DNA from: Lancefieldella sp. Marseille-Q7238
GTDB taxonomy: Bacteria; Actinomycetota; Coriobacteriia; Coriobacteriales; Atopobiaceae
Reading direction: 5' to 3'
Length of the DNA: 64,000 nucleotides
Assembly (NCBI RefSeq): GCF_949152215.1
Contig: NZ_OX424407.1
Location: 1,430,530-1,494,529, forward strand
Shown: positions 22,405-57,677 of the stretch, one piece after another
Layout of the letters: each line of letters begins with the position of its first letter
Numbering within the stretch: position 1 is the first letter of the stretch
Made by a program: the position numbers and the translations under genes
Notes under the pieces: generated by a model
What the model saw: the letters and a program-made list of their open reading frames with translations, nothing else
The model's database searches: none
Told to the model about the DNA's origin: nothing

Positions 22405-22424
22405 GGCGAGAAGGGCTTCTCGCC
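22405..22424. terminator. Bidirectional hairpin built from an inverted GGCGAGAA pair
   Basis: GGCGAGAAG at 22405-22413 and CTTCTCGCC at 22416-22424 are perfect inverted repeats with a two-base loop. It occupies the 42-base gap between the convergent kinase and GNAT genes, where a shared terminator is expected. There is no long T tract. The arms are the over-represented octamer found throughout the window. Confidence 0.65.
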
Positions 22425-45939: not shown

Positions 45940-46758
45940 ATGTCACGACGTTTTCGGTTCATCCTTTCAGGAGCATGCGCGCTTCTCGCGGTACTCTGCT
46001 GCATTGTGTACGGCAATCAGATCAGAGCGGAAGCTGAACAGTCTCGTGCCGAGGTAATTGAACGCTATGGCGGTGAGGTGGTAAATCTTGTGGTCGCCAC
46101 GCGGCCAATCGAGGCAGGAGACACTGTTTCAAGTTCCAACACGCAAGTGAAGAGTTGGGTGTCCGACCTTGCTCCGGAGGGTTCGTTTACTAATGCTGAC
46201 GATATTATGGGAAAACAGGTAACGATTCCTGTAAGCGCAGGTACTCCGCTTACCCAACTAAACTTCCGCTCTGAGAAAACGGCGGTAAGCATCCCTAAAA
46301 GCCTCGTAGGGCTTTCGATTTCACATGGCGAGAAAACCGGTCTTGTGGGGAGAGTTTCTGCAGGAACTACGCTGGCCGCGTATGAGATGACAGAGCATGG
46401 CATACGCCTGCTTTCGACTGACGTAACACTTTTATCTGATACAGGCGAAGGCGCTTCTCTTTCTGGCACGCCTTTGGTGCTCGGCGTTTTGCCGAAGGAT
46501 ATGACAAGCATTTTATCGGCTGAGGCAAAAGGGACACTTCGACTGGTAGTTCCCGGCGATGAAGTGGACATGTCTGAAATAACAACTCAAAACGCGCCGA
46601 CTGAAGTACGTCCTGACAAAGCGGACGTTTCTACATCCTCTGAAAATGCTGCTGCCTCTGATAACACTGTAGCTTCCGATGGTACCGCCGCCGATGGCGA
46701 GCAGGCCGATGTGGCGGAAGGTTCTGACGACGCGGAATATTATTTTGAGGAGGAATAA
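45940..46758 (+). CDS. cpaB: CpaB/RcpC-like Flp pilus assembly protein
   Basis: A 272-residue protein. The N-terminal membrane helix (about residues 6-24, 'FILSGACALLAVLCCIVYGN') is followed by a SAF domain ('VNLVVATRPIEAGDTVSSSNTQVKSW' and 'MGKQVTIPVSAGTPLTQLNF') and the CpaB/RcpC family region. The C-terminal 60 residues are acidic and Ser/Ala-rich. CpaB is an accessory protein of Tad pilus assembly; in Gram-negatives it works with the secretin, while in monoderms it may act at the cell wall. It is the first gene of the tad operon, and its stop overlaps the next ATG by one base. Confidence 0.85.
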   Translation: MSRRFRFILSGACALLAVLCCIVYGNQIRAEAEQSRAEVIERYGGEVVNLVVATRPIEAGDTVSSSNTQVKSWVSDLAPEGSFTNADDIMGKQVTIPVSAGTPLTQLNFRSEKTAVSIPKSLVGLSISHGEKTGLVGRVSAGTTLAAYEMTEHGIRLLSTDVTLLSDTGEGASLSGTPLVLGVLPKDMTSILSAEAKGTLRLVVPGDEVDMSEITTQNAPTEVRPDKADVSTSSENAAASDNTVASDGTAADGEQADVAEGSDDAEYYFEEE

Positions 46759-48062
46759 TGAAGGAGAAATGGCTTGCCTTTTCTGACATTGCCTATCGCA
46801 TTGAGCTCAATCTTGTCCTTTCTTCTTTGGGAGCCTTAGGTAACTGTGTATTCGCAAACAGCGCGGCGGACCTTCGGCAGCTTGCGTTGGAAGCTCAGCC
46901 TGATGAGTATTCGATTGTTATCGGCGGCACAAAAGATGATGTTTCAGATATCAATTTAGCGGCGGCGCTGGTGCATGATGGCAATGCCCGTGCAGTGGTG
47001 TTGGTACGCCGCAATGCGTCGGGATCTTTGAGGTCGCGTGCCGCGCGAGCGGGGATTGATTTGGTGCTTGATCCGGCTGAGATTGCGGAGCTTGCTAAAG
47101 CCGGAAGGATTCAAATGGTAGACGGGGGTCTCACTGTCCTTCCGGCCGTATCAGAGTGCGACTCAGAAAAAACACTCGACCTCGCTCCCTCCGCATGTCC
47201 AACGTTGGAAAATCTCGTTCCTCCCGCAGAAATTTCGCGGGCTCCCATCATAACGATGGTTTCTGGACGAGGAGGAGCAGGAAAAACAACCATAGCGGCT
47301 TCGTTTGCGCTTACAGCCGCTTCCTGGGGTATGAAGGTTGGCCTTATTGATCTCGATCTTACCTGTGGCAATCTCTACTCCTGCTTTGCGGACGGCAAAA
47401 TGAATGACCTGGCCAAGTTTACGGTGCATGAGCCGGGTGACGCGGCGGCACTGAAGATATCTGGAACTCAAGTGGCAAAGAATATTTCGCTTTGGGGGCC
47501 TTGTCTTAAACCGGAGATGGCCGAGACAGTAGCTCCTTTCGCGGGCAATCTGATCCAGGCGGTTTCAGGCATTGTTGATGTGGTCATTGTTGATACGTCA
47601 ACCTCTCTTACTGATGTCGTGGCGCAGGCCGCCCAGTTGAGTGACAGGTTTGTAATTGTTACCGGCAAGCCGACCTTCTCGCTTACCGCTATGTCAAGAA
47701 TAAGCGGTCTTGCAGTGCGGTTGGGAGTTGCAAGAACCAGGATTGTACGGATTGAGAACAAGGCAAATCCCCATACAAAACAGGATATTTCAACAGGGCG
47801 TGCGGAAATTGGGCTTGAAGCAGCTCGCCAGTATCGAGTTTTTGACGGGGGAGCCGATATTTTACCGTTGGTGGCGTCGGGACAATTGCCTTTGCTGCTT
47901 CAAGAACAGTCTCCCTTTGCAAAATCTCTCGCGTCCACGCTCGCTCAGCTCTTTTTGGGTCTGGGAAGCCTGCCGCAATGCGATGAAGCTCTGAAAGCTT
48001 CAAAGTGGTCGCCTGAGCACCGTCTTTTTGGTTTGTTTACCAGGCAGAAAGAGGTGGGATGA
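46758..48062 (+). CDS. tadZ: TadZ/CpaE-like ATPase
   Basis: A 434-residue protein. Residues 1-115 form a receiver-like domain without a clear phospho-acceptor motif. Residues 160-400 are a ParA/MinD-type ATPase with deviant Walker A 'MVSGRGGAGKTTIAASFAL' (K176) and 'VGLIDLDLTCGNLYSCFA'. TadZ/CpaE marks the pole or assembly site of Tad pili. The 'VDVVIVDTSTSLTDVVAQAAQLSDRFVIVTG' strand is typical of the family. It overlaps tadA by four bases. Confidence 0.88.
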   Translation: MKEKWLAFSDIAYRIELNLVLSSLGALGNCVFANSAADLRQLALEAQPDEYSIVIGGTKDDVSDINLAAALVHDGNARAVVLVRRNASGSLRSRAARAGIDLVLDPAEIAELAKAGRIQMVDGGLTVLPAVSECDSEKTLDLAPSACPTLENLVPPAEISRAPIITMVSGRGGAGKTTIAASFALTAASWGMKVGLIDLDLTCGNLYSCFADGKMNDLAKFTVHEPGDAAALKISGTQVAKNISLWGPCLKPEMAETVAPFAGNLIQAVSGIVDVVIVDTSTSLTDVVAQAAQLSDRFVIVTGKPTFSLTAMSRISGLAVRLGVARTRIVRIENKANPHTKQDISTGRAEIGLEAARQYRVFDGGADILPLVASGQLPLLLQEQSPFAKSLASTLAQLFLGLGSLPQCDEALKASKWSPEHRLFGLFTRQKEVG

Positions 48063-49399
48063 TGAGCGTTTTAGAGCGCGTTCACGCCGCGCAAGAATAT
48101 GTGTTGCATGAGCAGAAGCAAGAAAGCGGGTCGCAGTATTTTCGGGCGGTCTTAAAGAAGAAGCTCATAGATCATCTGGGGCTTTCTACAATCTCTCAGC
48201 TTATGAAGCAAGGAGACATCCAATACGTCCGCAAGGAATTGAGCGTTGCCTGTCAATCGATTCTCAACGAAGATTCGTCTGAAAGTTCAAAGCGCGAAAG
48301 TTCGGCACAAATAATTCGACAAGTAGTTGACGAGATTTGTGGACTTGGTCCCATTCAGCCGCTTCTGGAAGACCTCGAAGTTACCGAGATTATGATTAAC
48401 GGCTGCGGAGCGCTCTTTTACGAGAAGAACGGCGAGATTCACGAAGCGGACGCGGTCTTTGACTCTCCGGAACAGATTCTCATTGTGATGGACCGTATTT
48501 TGGCACCTTTAGGCAGGCGTCTTGACCAAGTGAGCCCTATCGTGGACGCCCGTCTAGCCAATGGGGACAGAGTAAATGCGGTGGCAGACCCTATTGCCAT
48601 CAATGGCCCTGCGGTAACTATCCGTCGGTTTACCGGCAAAATCACCTCTCTCGCAAGATTGATTGAGATGAAGTCACTGCCTTCGTGGATGGCGCAATTG
48701 CTTTCGTGGGCGGTAAAAACAAGAAGAGGCATTGCGGTCGTAGGTGGTACCGGTTCAGGAAAGACAACGCTTTTAAATGCACTTTCTTGTGAGATTAATC
48801 CAGCGGAGCGCATTGTGACCATTGAGGATTCAGCGGAGCTGCGCTTCGATTCGCATCCCAATGTCGTGCGGCTTGAAGCTCGTGCGGCATCCATCGAGGG
48901 TACTGGTGAAATTACCATCAGGCGCCTGGTGAGAAATGCGCTGCGTATGCGGCCGGACAGAATCATTGTAGGTGAGGTTCGGGGAGAAGAATGCATTGAC
49001 ATGCTCCAGGCTATGAATACCGGCCACGATGGTTCCCTTACAACGCTTCATGCTGGAACAGCAAAAGAGGCAATCTTGCGACTGGTGCTTATGGCTCGCT
49101 TTGGAATGGATTTACCTACGGACATTATCGAGGAGCAGATAGCCTCTGCTATCGATCTGATTGTAATGGCGCAACGACTACCTGACGGAAGACGGTATGT
49201 CACTTCAATTTCGGAGGTGTTTTGGGGAGAAGATCGAACGGTTCATACCAAGGAATGCGTCTCGTTCGATGTGCCTACACGACAATGGCGACTTAATTGG
49301 GTTCCATCATTTGTTGAAACAGCGGCCAAAGAAGGGCGAATCTCAAGAGGGGAGGTGGAAACATGGGAAAAGCGAGTGTCCTTTGCTTCGGCATCTTAA
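48059..49399 (+). CDS. tadA: TadA/CpaF pilus secretion ATPase
   Basis: A 446-residue secretion ATPase that powers Flp pilus extension. The N-terminal part has 'LGPIQPLLEDLEVTEIMINGCGALFYEKNG', a CpaF family signature. Walker A is 'GGTGSGKTTLLNALSCEI' (K235). The Asp box 'IVTIEDSAELRF' follows. 'RMRPDRIIVGEVRGEECIDMLQAMNTGHDGSLTTLHA' holds the Walker B and His box. It is complete and looks functional. Start codons ATG 48059 and 48062 are adjacent. Its stop falls inside the tadB start region (37-base overlap). Confidence 0.95.
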   Translation: MMSVLERVHAAQEYVLHEQKQESGSQYFRAVLKKKLIDHLGLSTISQLMKQGDIQYVRKELSVACQSILNEDSSESSKRESSAQIIRQVVDEICGLGPIQPLLEDLEVTEIMINGCGALFYEKNGEIHEADAVFDSPEQILIVMDRILAPLGRRLDQVSPIVDARLANGDRVNAVADPIAINGPAVTIRRFTGKITSLARLIEMKSLPSWMAQLLSWAVKTRRGIAVVGGTGSGKTTLLNALSCEINPAERIVTIEDSAELRFDSHPNVVRLEARAASIEGTGEITIRRLVRNALRMRPDRIIVGEVRGEECIDMLQAMNTGHDGSLTTLHAGTAKEAILRLVLMARFGMDLPTDIIEEQIASAIDLIVMAQRLPDGRRYVTSISEVFWGEDRTVHTKECVSFDVPTRQWRLNWVPSFVETAAKEGRISRGEVETWEKRVSFASAS

Positions 49400-50298
49400 T
49401 CGGAATTTTTGTATATGTTCTTTCCGGAATCACTCAAACCTTACGAGAATCGTTCAAGTACGGCGGCGTTTTACAGACCCTGGCTGTCGATATTTTGAGT
49501 CCCCTTTCTCAAACAGCGCTTGTTGCGAATTTGTATGAGGTGACTTGTTGGAGACACATGGCAGCGCTGGTGCAACAGCAGGTAAAAAGCGAGAGCGTTC
49601 AAATCTCCTCCGAAGAGTCCTGCGCCGCGGTTCTTATCGGTATAAGTGCCCTGTCACTATTTACAGGACTTCTCTTTCGGTCTTTTGCCGGTGGGATTTT
49701 CGCTGCGGTAGGATGTGTTGTCTTTATACCAATGAAGTATGAAAACGATTGCCGTAAGCGTAAGCTTGAGGTAGCTCACGGTATGCCTGGAATCTATCGG
49801 ACACTCTCCATTGCGCTTGGCTCAGGGCAGACGCTGTCTCAGGCTATAGAATATGTCGGAAATCATTCTCACGGGACCGTGTCTCAGTATTTTGTGCGCG
49901 CGTCTCTCAAGCTGCGGTGTGGCATGCCGGTTGAGACGGTTGTTGAAGAATTGGCGTCGGATCTGTCTGTTCCCGGATCAAGTTTGCTTGCGACAGCTCT
50001 TGTTATTTCGCATAGAACAGGAAGTCCTCTCCGGAATCTCTTTTTGAGGACAGCGGCGCTCGTAGAACACCAGGCAGAGTTCGAGAGACTTCTCTCAGTA
50101 AAAACGGCTCAAGTACGTCTTTCGGCTCGCATTGTCTGTTTATTGCCGCTTTTGCTTATCGGAACGCTCTCACTCATTTCTCCCGATTTTCAGCAAGGAC
50201 TTGCAACGACATCAGGGCTGCTTTGTGTTGCGGTCGCGTTGGGAATGGACGCATGCGCGCTCATTATCATCAAAAGACTTATGAAAAAGGTGCTCTGA
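49363..50298 (+). CDS. tadB: TadB-like pilus inner-membrane platform protein
   Basis: A 311-residue protein with a GspF/TadB domain. An N-terminal helix (about 4-22) and a pair near 90-125 precede the cytoplasmic F domain ('GMPGIYRTLSIALGSGQTLSQAIEYVG', then 'ELASDLSVPGSSLLATALVISHRTGSPL'). Two helices close the protein (about 245-300). With TadC it forms the membrane platform on which TadA acts. The ATG at 49363 follows AGAGGGGAGGTGG inside the end of tadA. Its stop overlaps the tadC start by one base (TGATG). Confidence 0.85.
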   Translation: MGKASVLCFGILIGIFVYVLSGITQTLRESFKYGGVLQTLAVDILSPLSQTALVANLYEVTCWRHMAALVQQQVKSESVQISSEESCAAVLIGISALSLFTGLLFRSFAGGIFAAVGCVVFIPMKYENDCRKRKLEVAHGMPGIYRTLSIALGSGQTLSQAIEYVGNHSHGTVSQYFVRASLKLRCGMPVETVVEELASDLSVPGSSLLATALVISHRTGSPLRNLFLRTAALVEHQAEFERLLSVKTAQVRLSARIVCLLPLLLIGTLSLISPDFQQGLATTSGLLCVAVALGMDACALIIIKRLMKKVL

Positions 50299-50963
50299 TG
50301 TCACTCGTAAAGGCTTTGGTGCTTGAATGTAGTGTGGGAGCTGCATTTGGTTCGATTTGGCTTGTAACAAGTACGCGAATGCAAAAAGACAGTGCTTCTA
50401 TATATGGCCATGTGTCAGATTGGATGCCCGCAGGGCTTCGCAAAGTACTGGACGGCATAGGTACCTCGAAACTGGTGCGAGAGATAACAAGGCGAGAGAA
50501 GATACATCATCAGCGGAGCGCCATTATTCGTGAAATGCCGCTTATGCTTGACGTTTTGACACTCGGACTTTCTTCGGGGCTTTCGTTCGACTCGGCTCTT
50601 GAACTGTATTGCCATCGCTGCGAGGGTATTCTCTCAAAAAAGATGAATACCGCGTTGCTCTCATGGCAGATTGGAATTACGTCCAGGTCAGACGCGCTTG
50701 AAGGACTCGCGTCAGAATACGGCATCACGTCACTTCTGAGTTTTGCTTCGGTTGTGAGTGAGTCTCTTGCCTTCGGCTCTCCTCTTGCAGACTCTCTTGA
50801 AAGGCAGGCAAGCACTATTCGAGATGATCAAAGAGCCGCTCTTGAAGCTGAAATCGAGAAGGTTCCCGTAAAGATGCTCATTCCGCTTGGGACACTCATT
50901 GTGCCGGCAATGCTCATAGCTATTCTTGGCCCGCTGCTTGGTCCGGCCCTTTCAGCATGGTAG
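50298..50963 (+). CDS. tadC: TadC-like pilus inner-membrane platform protein
   Basis: A 221-residue protein with one N-terminal helix (about 5-24), a GspF-like cytoplasmic domain ('EMPLMLDVLTLGLSSGLSFDSALELYCHRC' and 'SVVSESLAFGSPLADSLERQASTIRDDQRAALEAEIEKVPVKMLIPLGTLIVPAMLIAILGPLLGPAL' region) and a C-terminal helix. It is shorter than the typical about 300-residue TadC because the N-terminal region is reduced. I prefer ATG 50298, coupled to the tadB stop. It partners TadB in the platform. The Flp pilin gene follows after 22 bases. Confidence 0.85.
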   Translation: MSLVKALVLECSVGAAFGSIWLVTSTRMQKDSASIYGHVSDWMPAGLRKVLDGIGTSKLVREITRREKIHHQRSAIIREMPLMLDVLTLGLSSGLSFDSALELYCHRCEGILSKKMNTALLSWQIGITSRSDALEGLASEYGITSLLSFASVVSESLAFGSPLADSLERQASTIRDDQRAALEAEIEKVPVKMLIPLGTLIVPAMLIAILGPLLGPALSAW

Positions 50964-50985
50964 ATCATCACATAAGGAGGAAAAA

Positions 50986-51183
50986 ATGTTTGTACAGGAT
51001 TATCTGGAAAAGATTGTTTCTTTGATTAAGGAATTTTACGACGACAAGAACGGACAGGGTACGACAGAATATGCCATTCTTGTCGGCGTGCTGGTTGTCA
51101 TTGCTATCGTCGCCATTATTGCGTTCAAGGGAAAAATCACCGAACTTTGGAATGCAATTACAACAGGCATCAACTCGCTGTAA
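50986..51183 (+). CDS. flp: Flp-type major pilin
   Basis: A 65-residue Flp pilin. After a 21-residue leader comes the class IVb prepilin motif 'NGQGTTEYAILVGVLVVIAIVAIIAF'. Cleavage is expected between Gly and Gln, which leaves Glu at +5 and Tyr at +6 as in the Flp family. The mature part is nearly all one hydrophobic helix, followed by about 15 residues. The ATG at 50986 has an AAGGAGG site at 50974-50980, one of the best in the operon, which fits high expression of a major pilin. The prepilin peptidase that should process it is not in the window. Confidence 0.93.
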   Translation: MFVQDYLEKIVSLIKEFYDDKNGQGTTEYAILVGVLVVIAIVAIIAFKGKITELWNAITTGINSL

Positions 51184-51188
51184 CTCTC

Positions 51189-51665
51189 ATGAAAAAGAGG
51201 ATCGTAACGTGCTGCATTATTGCGCTCTGTCTCATATTCGCAGTGGTTGGATTTGTTTGTCTTCCACGTAAGAACACCGCACCCCCTGTCGCGTCGGGGC
51301 AGACAACATACAAGAGTACCGAGCAATCTGATGCAAAGAGAAGCAAAACCCCTGACACGTCAGAGAACAGGCGACTTGTTGACTACCTGCATAACATGCT
51401 GATGGGAGAACCACAGCAAACGTGGGAGACCAAAAAGTCGTTACAGCAAGCAGGGGAAGAGCTGTTGGATTTATATAAAGAAAAAGAGCATTCGGTTCCG
51501 GTATTTTCAGGATACCTTGATGTGCTGGGCAAAACCTGGGGGTGCATCTTTCAGGGCAATGGATGGACTGATATCTGCCTAGTAACCGATACGGATGCCG
51601 TTCGAAAGGTGGCCATATGTCATATGACTACGCAAGAGATGCAAGACGTTATTGCGCAGGGGTGA
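51189..51665 (+). CDS. Tad-locus hypothetical membrane-anchored protein
   Basis: A 158-residue protein that I do not recognise. An N-terminal helix ('IVTCCIIALCLIFAVVGFVCL') may be a signal anchor. A polar linker follows, then a compact domain (about 55-150) with 'LVDYLHNMLMGEPQQTWE' and 'FSGYLDVLGKTWGCIFQGNGWTDICLVTD'. Its place between flp and the pseudopilin genes, in the same transcript, implies a pilus-assembly or surface role (inference from context). ATG 51189 lies six bases after the flp stop and lacks a strong ribosome site. Its 3' end overlaps the next gene by 49 bases. Confidence 0.6.
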   Translation: MKKRIVTCCIIALCLIFAVVGFVCLPRKNTAPPVASGQTTYKSTEQSDAKRSKTPDTSENRRLVDYLHNMLMGEPQQTWETKKSLQQAGEELLDLYKEKEHSVPVFSGYLDVLGKTWGCIFQGNGWTDICLVTDTDAVRKVAICHMTTQEMQDVIAQG

Positions 51666-51859
51666 TTGAAAATGAATGTGGCCAGTCAACCCTTGAATAC
51701 GCCATCGTACTTTTCGCGTTTTTATCGATGGTCATTGCGCTTATTACGCTGTGGCATGCAGCGCGTTCAGGACTTTGGATACAAGCGGCGGTTGATGCGG
51801 CATCTCATGCGCTTCGGTCAGGATTTGCCACAACGCTCAAAGATGTTCTTTTGTACTGA
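51617..51859 (+). CDS. TadE-like small pseudopilin
   Basis: An 80-residue protein with a prepilin-like motif 'CGQSTLEYAIVLFAFLSMVIALITLW'. Cleavage is expected after Gly, with Glu at +5 and Tyr at +6 of the mature protein. The remaining about 40 residues form one amphipathic helix. It is shorter than typical TadE, so it is either a minor pilin or a reduced pseudopilin. Its start at 51617 overlaps the preceding gene by 49 bases in another frame, and its end is four bases before the next ATG. Confidence 0.75.
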   Translation: MSYDYARDARRYCAGVIENECGQSTLEYAIVLFAFLSMVIALITLWHAARSGLWIQAAVDAASHALRSGFATTLKDVLLY

Positions 51860-51863
51860 TGTT

Positions 51864-52391
51864 ATGCACGGCACTGGAGCAATAAGCAGTGCTAACGGCT
51901 CGTACAGCAATGACAATCGGTATGACGATGACGTGGCGTGTGGTATATCTGGCCAGTCTTCCGTTGAGGCGGCGCTGCTGCTTCCTATCATCTTGATACT
52001 TGTTGCCCTACTTTTGCAGCCGGTATGCATTTTGTATACCAAGACCATCATGAGCGGGGCCGCTTCGGAAGCGGCACGTCTATATGGAACTTCAACGGAT
52101 AGCGATCAATGCAAGGAGTATGTACTTCGGCGTCTTGCTGCCATACCCGAGATACCTCTCTTTCACACCGGGGGGAAGGAGGATTGGCTCATCGAACTGC
52201 AGAAAGACTCGCATGAGGTGCATATCAACATAACGGGTCATCTACGCCCGGTTCCACCTGTCGGGTGGCTTTTGTCGCTGACAGGTCAAAACGGAGCAAG
52301 TGGATATGTCGTTTCGGCACAGGTTCAGGAAAAGGTTCGACCTCAGTGGCTTGGAGGCTCTTATGCAGAATGGATTCACATGTGGAGTTGA
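51864..52391 (+). CDS. TadE-like pseudopilin
   Basis: A 175-residue TadE-family-like protein. Residues 1-30 form a polar leader. 'SGQSSVEAALLLPIILILVALLLQPVCIL' is the prepilin-like cleavage/helix segment (Gly before Gln; Glu at +5). The C-terminal about 115 residues form the soluble domain, with 'IMSGAASEAARLYGT' immediately after the helix, a pattern common in TadE proteins. It overlaps the next gene (52363) by 29 bases. TadE/F-type pseudopilins are processed by the same peptidase as Flp and are needed for pilus formation. Confidence 0.8.
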   Translation: MHGTGAISSANGSYSNDNRYDDDVACGISGQSSVEAALLLPIILILVALLLQPVCILYTKTIMSGAASEAARLYGTSTDSDQCKEYVLRRLAAIPEIPLFHTGGKEDWLIELQKDSHEVHINITGHLRPVPPVGWLLSLTGQNGASGYVVSAQVQEKVRPQWLGGSYAEWIHMWS

Positions 52392-54423
52392 GCAGACACA
52401 GTCCTGCTCGCCACTGATGAGCATCTTTCTTAACGATGAGGGAGGCTTTACAACGATTGCCGCCGCAACAACGCTGCTTGTCGTCCTTGCGCTGCTTTTT
52501 GGGTTGGTAGCTGTTGGGCAGACCATGTCTGATGCCTATGAGGTTCAGTCGATTGCTGATGCAGGCGCGCTCGCCGGAGAAAATGTTGTTGCGAAATATA
52601 CGACGGTGGCCACTGTTTTGGATGCCTGTGTTTTAAGTATGGGTCTTACAGGAATCGTAACGCTTGGCGCTGGTCTGATAGTCTCATGCATCCCTGGTTT
52701 TCAGGCGGCAGGAGGGAAACTGACTGAGGCGGGTAGAGAGGTTCTGAAGTCTCGCCGAGAGTTTGCAAAGAGTGTTGCCAAAGGGCTCAAATCTTTCGAG
52801 AAGGTAATGCCAGCTCTTATCGCTGCGCAGTCCTACGCATGTATACAATCAAATTCGAAGGGATCACTGCACTATACAGGAGCTGCTATACCGTTTCCGT
52901 TGGAATCCAAATCTGACTTTGGATCGCTCGATGCCGACATAAACGATGAAGACATGGTTAAAAAGAGCGAAGAAATCCAAAAGAAGACAGAGCAAAAAGA
53001 GAAGGCGCAGAAGAAGGCAGAAGAAGCTAAGGAAAAGGCATGGAAGGCCGATTGCGGCAACTCTCCTTCTTACTGCATGTATGAACGCGCGAGCGTGCTC
53101 GCTTCGTTGTCTGGTCAGGATAACCCGTTATACGCCTCGGTTGACGCGTGGACTTTTGGCGTTCCTCTCAAAAGAGCTCGGGCCTACTACAAAACGCGAG
53201 AATCCCATGAGAGTATTGGCGGCGCCACTGGTGAAGAAAGAAACGATTCTGCATGTCGAAAAGCTTTTTATCGCTACGCGTACCAGGAGGTTTGCAAAGG
53301 CTTTTACCAGGAAAACGAAGACGGGACGGTAGAATGTTCGTTTCCAAACCTGCCCCGCAATATGCAGGAGACAAAAGATACAACGCTGTATACGGACAAA
53401 TCCTGGCCTTGTTCTGAGGAAGAAGGAAAAACGGTCCTTCATAGCGATGCGGACTGTCCCGGAAGAAAGGGGGCAATAACAGGCTACGCTTCATTTTCTG
53501 ATCTCGATAGAGGGAAGGTGGAAACATGTCCATACTGCAAGCTTAGCTTTGATGATATGGGTAAGGTGGCTTCCGCATCAACGTCTATTGAAAATGGATT
53601 TGAGCATCATTGGAAAATAGTGGCTGATGAGGCAAAGATTTATCAGGGTGCCCGAGAAGAAATCGCTAAAACCGATGAAGAGGTAAAAGAACTCGCGCGA
53701 CAATCAAAAGATCTTTTTGCCAAGGCGTTAGAAGAACTTTCAGTCATTCGACCAACGCTTTGCCCGCCTGGAGCATGGGGATGCGTAGGCGTCGCAACAA
53801 GAGGGGAAACCGAACTGCCCGCAAGTTCTATCTCGGCAGTGTTTTCGGCACATTCGAGGTTGCCTCGGGGTGTGGCAATTTCAGGTGCCGTTCTTGCCCC
53901 GGACGAGGCGACTAAGGAAAACAATGTGCTTGCGGACTTTTTTGACTCTCTGTCAGAGCGAGCAGGTTTTGTAGGCACTACTGCGGACAATATTTTTGAA
54001 CTTTGGGGCAGCCTCCTTGTTTCTTATGGCTCTACCTATAAAGCGATAGGTTCAAAGGCAACAGGATTTTTGGATAAGTTTGATGGAGTTTTTGCTGGTG
54101 CAGGTAAATGGCTCAAGAACAAGATAGCTGAACTGCTTGAAGGAGCTGGTCTTCAGCCAGTGGACATGAGACTGAAACGTCCCGTTCTTACAAACAGTGA
54201 AAATATACTGTCTCAAGCGGGGTGTTCGAAAGAAGCGACTATACGCGAAGCGATTTTAAATATGCCGGAGCAAGGTAGCTTTATGGACTATGCCAAGGTG
54301 ATTGGCAAGGTGGCGATAAAAGACCTTCCGCCTGAAATAACCCTGGCTGAGCTTTCCATCCCCATTACAGGAGGCACTATTCCCATAACAATCAATATCA
54401 GGAAACTCTTGGGGGTGACATGA
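52363..54423 (+). CDS. TadG-like large pilus-associated protein with a Zn-binding-type motif
   Basis: A 686-residue protein of uncertain family. Residues 25-55 have a TadE/TadG-like start ('DEGGFTTIAAATTLLVVLALLFGLVAVGQ') without the Glu +5, followed by 'QSIADAGALAGENVVA', a sequence typical of TadG-type proteins. A Lys/Glu-rich coiled coil (about 200-225), a cysteine-containing region and a long C-terminal part follow. Residues 360-392 contain H360-x4-C365 and C389-x2-C392 ('HSDADC ... ETCPYC'), the layout of Ada-like zinc motifs in some secreted proteins. ATG 52363 follows a GGAGGC site. By size and position it could be a pilus tip or anchoring protein (inference). Confidence 0.7.
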   Translation: MQNGFTCGVEQTQSCSPLMSIFLNDEGGFTTIAAATTLLVVLALLFGLVAVGQTMSDAYEVQSIADAGALAGENVVAKYTTVATVLDACVLSMGLTGIVTLGAGLIVSCIPGFQAAGGKLTEAGREVLKSRREFAKSVAKGLKSFEKVMPALIAAQSYACIQSNSKGSLHYTGAAIPFPLESKSDFGSLDADINDEDMVKKSEEIQKKTEQKEKAQKKAEEAKEKAWKADCGNSPSYCMYERASVLASLSGQDNPLYASVDAWTFGVPLKRARAYYKTRESHESIGGATGEERNDSACRKAFYRYAYQEVCKGFYQENEDGTVECSFPNLPRNMQETKDTTLYTDKSWPCSEEEGKTVLHSDADCPGRKGAITGYASFSDLDRGKVETCPYCKLSFDDMGKVASASTSIENGFEHHWKIVADEAKIYQGAREEIAKTDEEVKELARQSKDLFAKALEELSVIRPTLCPPGAWGCVGVATRGETELPASSISAVFSAHSRLPRGVAISGAVLAPDEATKENNVLADFFDSLSERAGFVGTTADNIFELWGSLLVSYGSTYKAIGSKATGFLDKFDGVFAGAGKWLKNKIAELLEGAGLQPVDMRLKRPVLTNSENILSQAGCSKEATIREAILNMPEQGSFMDYAKVIGKVAIKDLPPEITLAELSIPITGGTIPITINIRKLLGVT

Positions 54424-54884
54424 AAGCTATACGAGATACTAAAGGGCAGATGACCGTTGAGCTTGCAGTTCTCATTCCTATTGTGATTGTAGTAGCGCTT
54501 ATTGTTATCAATCTGATGGAGTTTATCGACGCCTGCGCTGTCTTTGACGTGGTGAGCTCGGACACCGTTATTGCTCAAGCGGCGTCTCCTGCGCAAAATA
54601 TAAGCGCCAGCGCAATGTGTTCTGAGCTTGAGAGTGCGATAGCAACAGCGCTGCGGCGAGAAAATACCTGCTCCGTTTCCGTCTGCTGTGAAGACAGGGG
54701 AGTGGCTGAAAAATCGATAACGTCCAGCTTTCTTCCTCATTATGCGAAGTATATTTGTACACTGAAGTTTCGGCCGTGGCCGCGGGCTCTTAATCTGCCC
54801 ATTGTTTCCTACAGTGCTCCCATTGAGCTTACTCATGAAAAAACGATTATTATCGACAGGTTCAAGTCAGGTGTAGTGGTTTAG
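54420..54884 (+). CDS. TadE/TadF-like pseudopilin
   Basis: A 154-residue pseudopilin. 'TKGQMTVELAVLIPIVIVVALIVINLMEF' has the Gly-Gln cleavage site and Glu at +5. A soluble domain follows, with two Cys-rich strands ('TCSVSVCCED') and ends 'EKTIIIDRF'. It overlaps the TadG-like gene by four bases (ATGA). This is the third TadE-type protein of the operon and resembles TadF in position. Confidence 0.75.
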   Translation: MKAIRDTKGQMTVELAVLIPIVIVVALIVINLMEFIDACAVFDVVSSDTVIAQAASPAQNISASAMCSELESAIATALRRENTCSVSVCCEDRGVAEKSITSSFLPHYAKYICTLKFRPWPRALNLPIVSYSAPIELTHEKTIIIDRFKSGVVV

Positions 54885-55391
54885 ATGGTAAACGTAACCT
54901 TTAGTTCCGATACGTTGTGCAAAAGTTTGACATTTCGTCTTTTGAAAACACATAGGGAGCGGCTGGTTGGACTTTTGCACGAGAGGCATAAAGACGCGTG
55001 CGTTGTCTTTATGCGGTGCCGCTCAATTCATACATTTGGAATGAGAAACCCTATTGATGTGGCGTTTCTGTCTCAATATGGAGAAGTGCTCGCATCGTTT
55101 AGAGAGGTTCCATCGGGAAAGATACGCTCCTGTCCAAAAGCGTATTGCGCTCTGGAACGTTTTTCAAATGCTGGCAGTTGGCTTGAGATAGGGGAAATCT
55201 ATTTTGTTTCAGATATCTCCACTATGACAGCGGATACTCGGCAAAGCTCTCGGAGAAAGGGGCATCTATATGATGTGCAATGTGAAAGTCTGTCCAAGAT
55301 GCGGAGAAAAACTCTTCCAGGATATGGGGGTTTGTTACGGATGTCTTTACGATTTCCGCGGAAGAGAATCGCGAACAAGCAGAAATATTAA
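54885..55391 (+). CDS. DUF192 family protein within the tad operon
   Basis: Residues 1-115 of this 168-residue frame are a DUF192 domain: 'RLVGLLHERHKDACVVFMRCRSIHTFGMRNPIDVAFLSQYGEVLASFREVPSGKIRSCPKAYCALE' contains the family's 'HTFGMRNPIDVAFL' core. The last about 40 residues look like noncoding-type sequence and overlap the next gene by 122 bases, so the functional protein may simply end early in evolutionary terms. The start ATG directly follows the stop of the pseudopilin gene. DUF192 function is unknown; no signal peptide is visible here. Confidence 0.75.
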   Translation: MVNVTFSSDTLCKSLTFRLLKTHRERLVGLLHERHKDACVVFMRCRSIHTFGMRNPIDVAFLSQYGEVLASFREVPSGKIRSCPKAYCALERFSNAGSWLEIGEIYFVSDISTMTADTRQSSRRKGHLYDVQCESLSKMRRKTLPGYGGLLRMSLRFPRKRIANKQKY

Positions 55392-55536
55392 CAGCGTGCC
55401 TTTTGTTGAAGAAGAAACAAGCTCTCGTACTGTGACCATAGCTTCGGATGCTTACTGTCTTGAAGACGAAATAGGTGACGAATGGGACAAAGGGTTGCCG
55501 CCCGTAGACTATGAGGAAGTACTTGGCTGTGTATAG
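55270..55536 (+). CDS. Small zinc-ribbon protein ending the tad operon
   Basis: An 88-residue protein with two CxxC pairs near its start ('CNVKVCPRCGEKLFQDMGVCYGCLYDF'), a typical zinc ribbon, and an acidic C-terminal half. ATG 55270 has an AAAGGGG site at 55256-55262, which is good evidence for translation despite the 122-base out-of-frame overlap with the DUF192 frame. It may regulate or adapt another protein of the operon. I do not recognise a named family. A 134-base gap to the DUF2207 gene follows. Confidence 0.65.
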   Translation: MMCNVKVCPRCGEKLFQDMGVCYGCLYDFRGRESRTSRNINSVPFVEEETSSRTVTIASDAYCLEDEIGDEWDKGLPPVDYEEVLGCV

Positions 55537-55670
55537 AAATCAGATATCCAGGTATGTTCGTGCACGATTTCTCAATCGCATAAAAACTACTGATGAATCT
55601 GCCATTGACGCGCGCGGGTGGTATCCTTGAGAGGTCAGCGATCATAGAAACACCTATTCAAGGAGTCACT

Positions 55671-57677
55671 ATGTCACACAAAATGACTGCAGGAACGTGC
55701 AAAAAGGCGCTTCTCGCCCTTGCTGTTACCGTGGCCTTCGTCTTTGTTGCCGGCATCATGTCGGTTCGACCAGCGTATGCCAAATCTTTAGCTGTCTCTA
55801 GGGTACACATCGACGCAACAGTCAATTCAGACGGTACGATAGATGTAGTAGAGACGCGCACATTTAATTTCAGCGGTAGCTACAACGGAGTCTATTGGAA
55901 AATTCCATACGGATATAACAAAGCCAATGGGCAGACGGTTGATGTCAGTTTTACAGGCGTAACGGTCAAGGATACTTATGGCACAAAAACACTTGACGAG
56001 GGTCATGAATCAGGCTTTGGTGAGCGCTATGAAGTGCAGAATTCAGATTCAGTAAAGGAGCTGAAGATTTATTCCGCTCATAGCGATGAAACTGCGGATA
56101 TCACGATTTCCTATACGCTTACCAATGTTGCTACAAAGTGGGACGATACTTCCGAAATTTACTGGAAGTTTGTTTCAGATGGCTGGGAGACCGGTTCAGA
56201 TAACGTTACCTGCACAATTAACCTTCCGGTTCCGGCCGGACAAAATCCGACCACAGGAGACGGTACCGTTAGAGCATGGGCTCATGGTCCGCTTGATGGT
56301 AACGTTTCGATTTCAGGTGGAACTATTACCTATACGTTCCCAGGAATTGGCGAATCGGAGTTTGCTGAGGCCCGTGTCGTATTTCCCACTGATTGGCTGC
56401 CGGGAGCTCAAACGGTATCAGGTACCAAATTGAGCTCCATTCTTGCCGAAGAACAGAGTTTTGCTGACAAGGCGAATCAAAAGAGGACTGTTGCCCGAAT
56501 CGTGATATACGGCCTCTATGTACTTGCCGCTGTATTTGTAATAGGAGGCATTTTCCTTATTGTTCGTATGCGGTCTAAGTATCGCAAGGTGATGGCTCCC
56601 AATTTTACTGACGAGTATTTCAGGGATATGCCGTCAGAAGATCACCCTGCAGTGCTTGGTATGCTCTATAGGGGAGAAGAAATCGATTCATCAGCGCTGA
56701 CCGCAACACTCATGCGTTTGAGTGACGAAAAGTCAATTCGTCTTGACAAAGCAAAAGTAAAGGGAGCTTTCGGGCGTACAAAAGATGACTTCTGTCTTAC
56801 TAAGCTTAAGGATGTGCCGGTCAGTCGAGGATACGGCTCTGCAGAGGGCGTAACTGCATACGCGCAAAAGATTGATGCAAGGGCTCTTGATCTTTTCTTC
56901 AAAACGATAGCGCCAAAGACTGACCATACATTCTCTGATGGTGATGATTCAGGTAGCAAACTTATTTTGGGTGATATTAAAAAGGTGGCAAAAGAGCATC
57001 CCGAGAGCTTTTCCGAAGCTTATGACAAGTGGGAAGATGCCGTAAGAGATGGCTATACGTCCCGATTTAGTGAAGACTCCATTTCCTTTAACGGTGTCGG
57101 CGTAATGGTATTCGTTGCCGTTTTAGAGTTCGGCTTCGCTATCCTTGGAGGTATTGCGGGAATTGCGACAGGACTTAGTTTGCTTAATGTAGTGCTCATT
57201 GCTGTACCTGCTATCTTAGTGGGTGTTTTTGCCGTTTTGGCTATTACAGGATTTGACAAGATAAATCGTGAGGGAATAGAGACACTTGCCAAGACAAAAG
57301 CTTTAAGAAACTGGCTTTTGAACTTTACGCATCTTAACGAAGCAATTCCTCAGGATGTCATCCTTTGGAACAAGCTCCTTGTTATGGCTGTTGCACTGGG
57401 CGTCTCTGAAAAAGTAATCGAGCAGCTCAAGGTAGCATGTCCTGAGATTTTGGAAGATCCTCGCATTATGCCAACGTACGGGTGGTATTACTATGGCGAT
57501 TCATTCGGACGTGACAGCGCTATTGCCGCTGTCGGAAATACGGTAGCAGCTTCTCACGCAGTATCCACAGCTTCGCTTGCCGGCTCCAGCAATAGTTCCG
57601 GAAGCGGCTTCGGCGGCGGTGCGTCCTTCGGCGGCGGCGGCGGCTTCGGAGGCGGCGGCGGAGGCGGCGGTTTTTAA
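55671..57677 (+). CDS. DUF2207 membrane protein with Gly-rich tail
   Basis: A 668-residue protein with a Sec-type signal (about residues 12-37, 'LLALAVTVAFVFVAGIMSVRPAYA'). The extracellular DUF2207 domain follows (about 40-260, 'VSRVHIDATVNSDGTIDVVETRTFNFSGSYNGVYWKIPYGYNK'), with a membrane helix near 282-303. A cytoplasmic segment and a helix pair (about 480-520) come next, and the C-terminus is a pure Gly/Phe/Ser tail of about 30 residues. Such proteins are common in Firmicutes and actinobacteria and have unknown roles. ATG 55671 follows AAGGAG, and a strong terminator follows the gene. It may be linked to the pilus operon only by proximity. Confidence 0.88.
   Translation: MSHKMTAGTCKKALLALAVTVAFVFVAGIMSVRPAYAKSLAVSRVHIDATVNSDGTIDVVETRTFNFSGSYNGVYWKIPYGYNKANGQTVDVSFTGVTVKDTYGTKTLDEGHESGFGERYEVQNSDSVKELKIYSAHSDETADITISYTLTNVATKWDDTSEIYWKFVSDGWETGSDNVTCTINLPVPAGQNPTTGDGTVRAWAHGPLDGNVSISGGTITYTFPGIGESEFAEARVVFPTDWLPGAQTVSGTKLSSILAEEQSFADKANQKRTVARIVIYGLYVLAAVFVIGGIFLIVRMRSKYRKVMAPNFTDEYFRDMPSEDHPAVLGMLYRGEEIDSSALTATLMRLSDEKSIRLDKAKVKGAFGRTKDDFCLTKLKDVPVSRGYGSAEGVTAYAQKIDARALDLFFKTIAPKTDHTFSDGDDSGSKLILGDIKKVAKEHPESFSEAYDKWEDAVRDGYTSRFSEDSISFNGVGVMVFVAVLEFGFAILGGIAGIATGLSLLNVVLIAVPAILVGVFAVLAITGFDKINREGIETLAKTKALRNWLLNFTHLNEAIPQDVILWNKLLVMAVALGVSEKVIEQLKVACPEILEDPRIMPTYGWYYYGDSFGRDSAIAAVGNTVAASHAVSTASLAGSSNSSGSGFGGGASFGGGGGFGGGGGGGGF

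Follow-up and report, generated by a model that had tools for sequence, protein, structure and literature searches.

A Tad pilus operon and an abundant 10-bp motif in Lancefieldella suggest possible sequence-selective DNA uptake in Atopobiaceae

The Tad pilus of Atopobiaceae may carry out sequence-selective DNA uptake directed by the motif TGGCGAGAARNNC, and self-DNA recognition may thereby have arisen independently a third time; we assign this reading a probability of about 0.42. The evidence comes from one Tad operon, from DNA-import genes elsewhere in the same chromosome, and from a short motif that is over-represented throughout it. The window analysed here is the whole stretch of 64,000 nucleotides (C1:1430530-1494529) of a single-contig genome of 1.6 Mb that is 99.3% complete. 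The host, Lancefieldella, is an oral, Gram-positive, monoderm actinobacterium (Atopobiaceae, Coriobacteriia). The TadA sequence matches that of Atopobium sp. oral taxon 199 F0494 at 100% identity and that of Lancefieldella rimae at 83%.

The Tad operon (45940-55536) consists of 13 overlapping or abutting genes, all on the plus strand, in the order CpaB-TadZ-TadA-TadB-TadC-Flp-anchored protein-TadE-TadE-TadG-TadF-DUF192-Zn ribbon. The first-pass annotation had spoken of twelve genes; its identifications held against Pfam/NCBIfam profiles, motifs and synteny, whereas its count disagreed with its own list, which names 13.

45940..46758, plus strand: CpaB/RcpC-like protein with a SAF domain (PF08666 3e-10; TIGR03177 56 bits, cut-off 71; syntenic in 11 related loci)
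46758..48062, plus strand: TadZ/CpaE-like ParA-type ATPase of the ParA/MinD type (PF10609, PF13614, TIGR03815)
48059..49399, plus strand: TadA/CpaF motor ATPase (PF00437 (T2SSE) 180 bits; TIGR03819 304 bits)
49363..50298, plus strand: TadB platform protein (PF00482 (T2SSF) 1.7e-11)
50298..50963, plus strand: TadC platform protein (PF00482 1.9e-13; listed ORF start 50223, likely start 50298)
50986..51183, plus strand: Flp major prepilin with cleavage motif KNG|QGTTEY (sequence, with weak PF16982 and PF04021 matches; listed ORF start 50926)
51189..51665, plus strand: membrane-anchored protein (no Pfam match; orthologues occupy the corresponding position in relatives)
51617..51859, plus strand: small TadE/Flp-like pseudopilin, G|QSTLEY (PF07811 1.5e-4, slightly below cut-off)
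51843..52391, plus strand: TadE minor pseudopilin, G|QSSVEA (PF07811 1.6e-8; start about 51843, listed ORF start 51666)
52417..54423, plus strand: TadG-like large pseudopilin-domain protein (PF13400 3.6e-4, slightly below cut-off; synteny; listed ORF start 52300)
54420..54884, plus strand: TadF/TadE-like pseudopilin, G|QMTVEL (PF04021 7.5e-4 and PF07811 0.023, both below cut-off)
54885..55391, plus strand: DUF192-like protein (PF02643 1.5e-4, below cut-off; syntenic in most, not all, relatives)
55270..55536, plus strand: small zinc-ribbon protein (PF10571 0.0037, below cut-off; present in most relatives)

CpaB, TadZ, TadA, TadB and TadC were assigned by Pfam/NCBIfam profiles. The small members scoring below the curated Pfam cut-offs (score/cut-off in bits: Flp 19.8/33.5, first TadE 22.3/22.9, TadG 21.2/22.3, DUF192 22.3/27) are backed by their position, by prepilin motifs and by synteny across 11 related loci. 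Several listed ORF starts (TadC, Flp, the anchored protein, the second TadE and TadG) lie too far upstream. The order from CpaB to TadF is kept in Lancefieldella, Atopobium, other Atopobiaceae and Collinsella, and DUF192 and the zinc ribbon are usual, not constant, in related tad loci. With TadA, separate TadB and TadC, TadZ, a Flp with a G/XXXXE-type site and TadE/F proteins, the locus has the composition of a monoderm Tad (type IVc) system; it is an ordinary actinobacterial Tad locus, new only as another member. A profile search of the block gave no secretin match and no prepilin peptidase match among the 13 genes, in agreement with the first-pass annotation on both points; the peptidase is unlinked, its gene (PF01478, scoring above cut-off) lying at C1:1364837, some 66 kb ahead of the window.

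The genome-wide search that the first-pass annotation had proposed for comEA, comEC, dprA and a peptidase found all of them. The comEA gene (SLBB and HHH_3 domains) adjoins comEC on its upstream side, ComEC combines the transmembrane Competence domain with a nuclease domain of beta-lactamase fold (Lactamase_B), and dprA lies at C1:182393 (201 bits). A search of the genome for T2SSE-family ATPases returned TadA alone above cut-off. Tad is thus the sole candidate for a competence pilus, and neither a ComG nor a PilB system was seen. ComEC and a T2SSE ATPase, the latter mostly in single copy, occur in 101 of 101 good Atopobiaceae genomes, and among the good genomes sampled from the rest of the order ComEC was present in 60 of 60 and the ATPase in 58 of 60. 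The two are jointly kept even in genomes of 1.0-1.5 Mb.

The closest precedent is the competence pilus encoded by tad-1 and tad-2 of Micrococcus luteus (Angelov et al. 2015, PMC4322843), which likewise has no secretin, an unlinked peptidase, comEA/comEC and dprA, in an organism that, like Lancefieldella, has no type IV filament genes besides Tad. The dependence of M. luteus transformation on Tad pili, stated in the first-pass annotation, is borne out by that study: every tad gene except tadB is needed, and tadV is also unlinked, the usual arrangement for the peptidase in actinobacteria (PMC4322843). Since the M. luteus genes are required for transformation, the same role is likely for the Lancefieldella Tad pilus, which by this analogy probably acts in DNA uptake. 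The two systems differ in that M. luteus has two complementary tad loci without TadZ, whereas Lancefieldella has one 13-gene operon with TadZ, CpaB, DUF192 and zinc ribbon, and in that transformation is proven in M. luteus and, for the Lancefieldella system, predicted.

Within the window, GGCGAGAA is enriched above all other octamers (36 copies vs 4.2 expected) and is presumably the one that the first-pass annotation had in mind. The enrichment suggested there extends to the whole genome, which holds 647 copies vs 130 of the reversed word. The octamer belongs to a sharper 10-bp motif, CGAGAAGNNC, whose extended form is TGGCGAGAARNNC. In the sample from which the fine motif statistics were taken (the window and twenty stretches of 20 kb, 452 kb of readable bases in all), a C stands three bases past the core in 76-81% of sites and TG(G) is favoured upstream. 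CGAGAAGNNC occurs 1331 times in 1.6 Mb, about once per 1.2 kb, with 661 copies forward and 670 reverse vs 136/106 for the reversed pattern. Sampled coding DNA contains 341 sites vs 53.5 +/- 6.8 after synonymous-codon shuffling (z = 42); enrichment is 6.8-fold in the sense and 5.4-fold in the antisense orientation, and the density in intergenic DNA equals that in genes. Most single-base variants are near background, the exceptions being G to A at position 7 (2.8x) and a few others (about 2x); this is the variant profile of a protein-read site. The window contains 56 CGAGAAGNNC sites, three of them within the first genes of the tad operon, the later part of which has no site between the one in tadA and position 55707:

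45979..45988, minus strand: CGAGAAGNNC site in cpaB
47672..47681, minus strand: CGAGAAGNNC site in tadZ
48421..48430, plus strand: CGAGAAGNNC site in tadA (next site only at 55707)

With strands assigned by GC skew in the sampled DNA, 196 copies of CGAGAAGNNC lie on the leading vs 186 on the lagging strand, and the replication-strand skew of the motif is inconsistent in other genomes. Spacing is near random (CV 0.96). Close pairs are convergent in 15 cases vs divergent in 4; three of the convergent ones are intergenic, and five form perfect CGAGAAGNNCTTCTCG dyads. One dyad in the window occupies a terminator-like position:

22407..22422, no strand assigned: perfect inverted dyad CGAGAAGGGCTTCTCG between convergent genes

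CGAGAAGNNC was no denser in a conserved gene subset, a partial proxy for the core, than elsewhere, and its density in AT-rich genes was 0.13/kb (few data). Sites are retained between species: L. rimae, whose aligned DNA is 77% identical, keeps 13 of 20 sites intact vs 13% of words of the same composition. Retention is lower, with turnover, in the genome that we take to be L. parvula (10 of 44 vs 12.5% of same-composition words), where position 7 takes A or G about equally (A 7.4x, G 6.4x), a dialect-like shift.

For relatives, about 100 kb per genome was sampled and compared with synonymous shuffles. Enrichment was clear in Lancefieldella, in G002 and in most sampled genera of Atopobiaceae, at GC contents of 45-68%, and also in G189, which is placed in another family; it was only 1.7-3.6x in high-GC members. 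Little or no enrichment was seen in G017, G030, G051 and G074 or in genomes of the Collinsella and Eggerthellaceae types (the family labels of all these numbered relatives and of the two types were inferred), and about 140 actinobacterial genomes from outside the order showed no comparable enrichment. Collinsella-type genomes give 3-4x by the ratio to the reversed pattern and 1.1-1.7x once shuffled; such ratios overstate enrichment at high GC, and therefore only the shuffled tests were used there. The last-position C follows the core in 71-88% of cases in motif-bearing genomes vs 36-47% in four motif-poor ones. A search of motif-poor genomes for other dialects gave only one weak candidate, GCAGGTA in G017, and a gapped-word scan gave no comparable candidate; the same scan missed the top rank for the motif itself in several motif-bearing genomes. 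G017, G030 and G051, which lack the motif, retain the whole tad locus and comEC. Tad and ComEC are near-universal in the order, and therefore co-occurrence of the motif with them is uninformative. The selective uptake that the first-pass annotation had proposed from a Tad pilus and an octamer in one chromosome thus stands in part: the machinery is present and the motif is distributed as an uptake sequence would be, whereas co-occurrence does not show its recognition in uptake. Neither observation that the annotation had named as refuting it, a genome lacking comEC/dprA homologues or one lacking octamer enrichment, was made.

Known uptake sequences lack orientation bias, include some inverted pairs and have sites within genes (PMC1939737), and the properties of DUS and USS are described in PMC1939737, PMC5031613 and PMC12616744. 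The DUS of Neisseriaceae (ATGCCGTCTGAA) resembles the present motif in its length of about 10-12 bp, its non-palindromic form, its hundreds to thousands of copies, its lack of orientation bias, its dialects and its inverted pairs; it differs in belonging to a Gram-negative T4aP system, in its unrelated sequence and in having an experimentally shown receptor, the minor pilin ComP. The USS of Pasteurellaceae (AAGTGCGGT / ACAAGCGGT), with about 1300 copies in H. influenzae (PMC5217627), is similar in copy number, in having two dialects and in its intragenic and terminator-forming copies; it too is Gram-negative and unrelated in sequence, and it has flanking AT tracts, none of which were seen at CGAGAAGNNC. 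The motif shows the hallmarks of DUS/USS: it is over-represented beyond coding constraints, orientation-neutral, non-palindromic, sharp and in a minority of inverted pairs, with dialect-like variation and retention between species. Counting against an uptake role are the complete machinery of motif-free relatives, the site-free later part of the tad operon, the modest enrichment at high GC and the low retention in L. parvula. The link between the motif and uptake is circumstantial, and we regard the odds that a Tad-based uptake pathway uses CGAGAAGNNC as its uptake sequence as about even.

In the pathway that we propose, the monoderm Tad (type IVc) pilus, being the sole type IV filament, would most likely be the DNA-capture pilus. 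TadA would extend and retract its Flp fibre, and the fibre would bind external DNA and bring it to ComEA; ComEC would pass one strand, and DprA would protect this strand for recombination. Preference for DNA bearing CGAGAAGNNC would come from a receptor at the cell surface, perhaps one of the minor pseudopilins or the anchored operon protein, and biased uptake together with recombination could have accumulated the motif across Atopobiaceae. Both the function of Tad in Lancefieldella uptake and the role of the motif as its recognition signal are thus what we infer.

The anchored protein (51189-51665) is a candidate motif receptor. It is predicted to be extracellular, has a conserved C-terminal domain (YLDLxGxVWSC), and among its orthologues in relatives is conserved in position and fast evolving in sequence. 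Its AF2 model (pLDDT 79) is confident chiefly in the C-terminal domain, and the best structural matches are weak and PsbP/DcrB/LppA-like; no sequence relative was found in the PDB. A pilin-type receptor was also considered for this protein and set aside, the model being without a pilin match.

A less likely alternative is that Tad serves uptake (or also adhesion) while the motif acts within the cell, as a Chi-like signal or as the site of a chromosome-organising protein. A frequency of about 1 per 1.2 kb and a 6x over-representation could suit Chi-type or chromosome-organising elements, conservation across the family suits a conserved intracellular protein, and relatives without the motif still have tad and comEC. 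KOPS-type signals need strong skew, and a KOPS/SRS identity of CGAGAAGNNC is ruled out by the absence of replication-strand skew. Chi sites (e.g. GCTGGTGG) are likewise short over-represented oligonucleotides; according to PMC8022716 they show leading-strand polarity, whereas CGAGAAGNNC is unpolarised, at 196 vs 186, so that a Chi identity is disfavoured. CGAGAAGNNC also differs from Chi in having a two-base gap. The inverted pairs and the dialect-like change are, moreover, typical of uptake sequences.

It is improbable, in our judgement, that Tad serves adhesion alone, with ComEA, ComEC and DprA vestigial or working without a pilus and the motif an unrelated, HIP1-like word, perhaps linked to a methyltransferase. 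Adhesion and biofilm formation are the best-known roles of Tad pili, and the literature searched (most subscription papers and all preprints lay outside it) contained no report of transformation in Lancefieldella or in other Coriobacteriia. Cyanobacterial HIP1 offers a precedent for an abundant word without a known uptake role (PMC4390886). Vestigial com genes are difficult to reconcile with intact comEA, comEC, dprA and peptidase genes and with the joint retention of ComEC and TadA, also in the genomes of 1.0-1.5 Mb. HIP1 is also palindromic, whereas CGAGAAGNNC is not.

That the motif is a by-product of Gly-Glu-Lys codon usage or codon-pair bias is very improbable: CGAGAAG does fall within xxC-GAG-AAG in its most frequent sense frame, and the ratio to the reversed pattern is raised in high-GC relatives that have no strong motif, but in the host genome codon bias is rejected as the source by the synonymous shuffles (z = 42), antisense copies are nearly as enriched, the motif also occurs in intergenic DNA and most single-base variants are near background. 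Codon bias possibly has a partial share in high-GC relatives only.

According to a 2025 paper, uptake sequences occur only in Neisseriaceae and Pasteurellaceae (PMC12616744), so the motif, if it is one, would add Atopobiaceae as a third such family and the first Gram-positive one. For Lancefieldella, Atopobium and Coriobacteriia, a search that likewise left most subscription papers and all preprints outside found no paper describing such a motif. A family-wide 10-bp element as abundant as this, for which no description was found, calls for a function even if it acts inside the cell. If selective uptake by the Tad pilus is correct, CGAGAAGNNC would be the first uptake sequence recognised by a Tad system and not by T4aP, pointing to a sequence-specific DNA receptor in the Tad pilus and to self-recognition having arisen independently in a monoderm lineage that bears such a pilus, and adding the motif to DNA would provide a practical handle for transforming Coriobacteriia in the laboratory.

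The longest gap in the window free of the 10-bp candidate uptake motif CGAGAAGNNC spans 7.3 kb (48431-55706), where about 6 sites would be expected (Poisson probability ~0.002, calculated post hoc). The site scan of the window revealed no CGAGAAGNNC site in the tad operon downstream from within tadA. Two features of the operon and its 3′ flank were also noted:

51189-51665, membrane-anchored protein of the tad operon with a YLDLxGxVWSC domain, conserved in position and fast-evolving in sequence
55593-57677, DUF2207 membrane protein located 3′ of the tad operon

The anchored protein matches no Pfam family, and its fold is predicted to be weakly PsbP/DcrB/LppA-like. The DUF2207 protein occupies this place in the Lancefieldella loci and in one Atopobium MAG; among the remaining related loci that were examined, none has it there. 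A CpaB/RcpC homolog (45940-46758) is retained in the operon despite the lack of a secretin gene in this block.

Other words were also enriched. In G017, a motif-poor genome of Atopobiaceae genus g10 (stretches L063-L067), GCAGGTA/CGCAGGTA was enriched on both strands (56 versus 15 in coding DNA); this word may be another dialect, or a motif with no relation to CGAGAAGNNC. CGCTTGA was enriched, mainly in the sense orientation, in two distant Coriobacteriales, G172 and the own-genome sample (in which 12 kb of stretch L048, C1:400001-420000, reads as N, either withheld or unsequenced); this sense enrichment is probably a codon-pair effect.

The full CGAGAAGNNC motif was 3.4-fold enriched, with C at the last motif position in 82%, in G189 (stretches L083-L087), whose assignment is to a different family, f10. 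Unlike G189, the remaining f10 genomes tested lacked the full motif. Its presence within f10 may reflect either horizontal spread or uneven loss.
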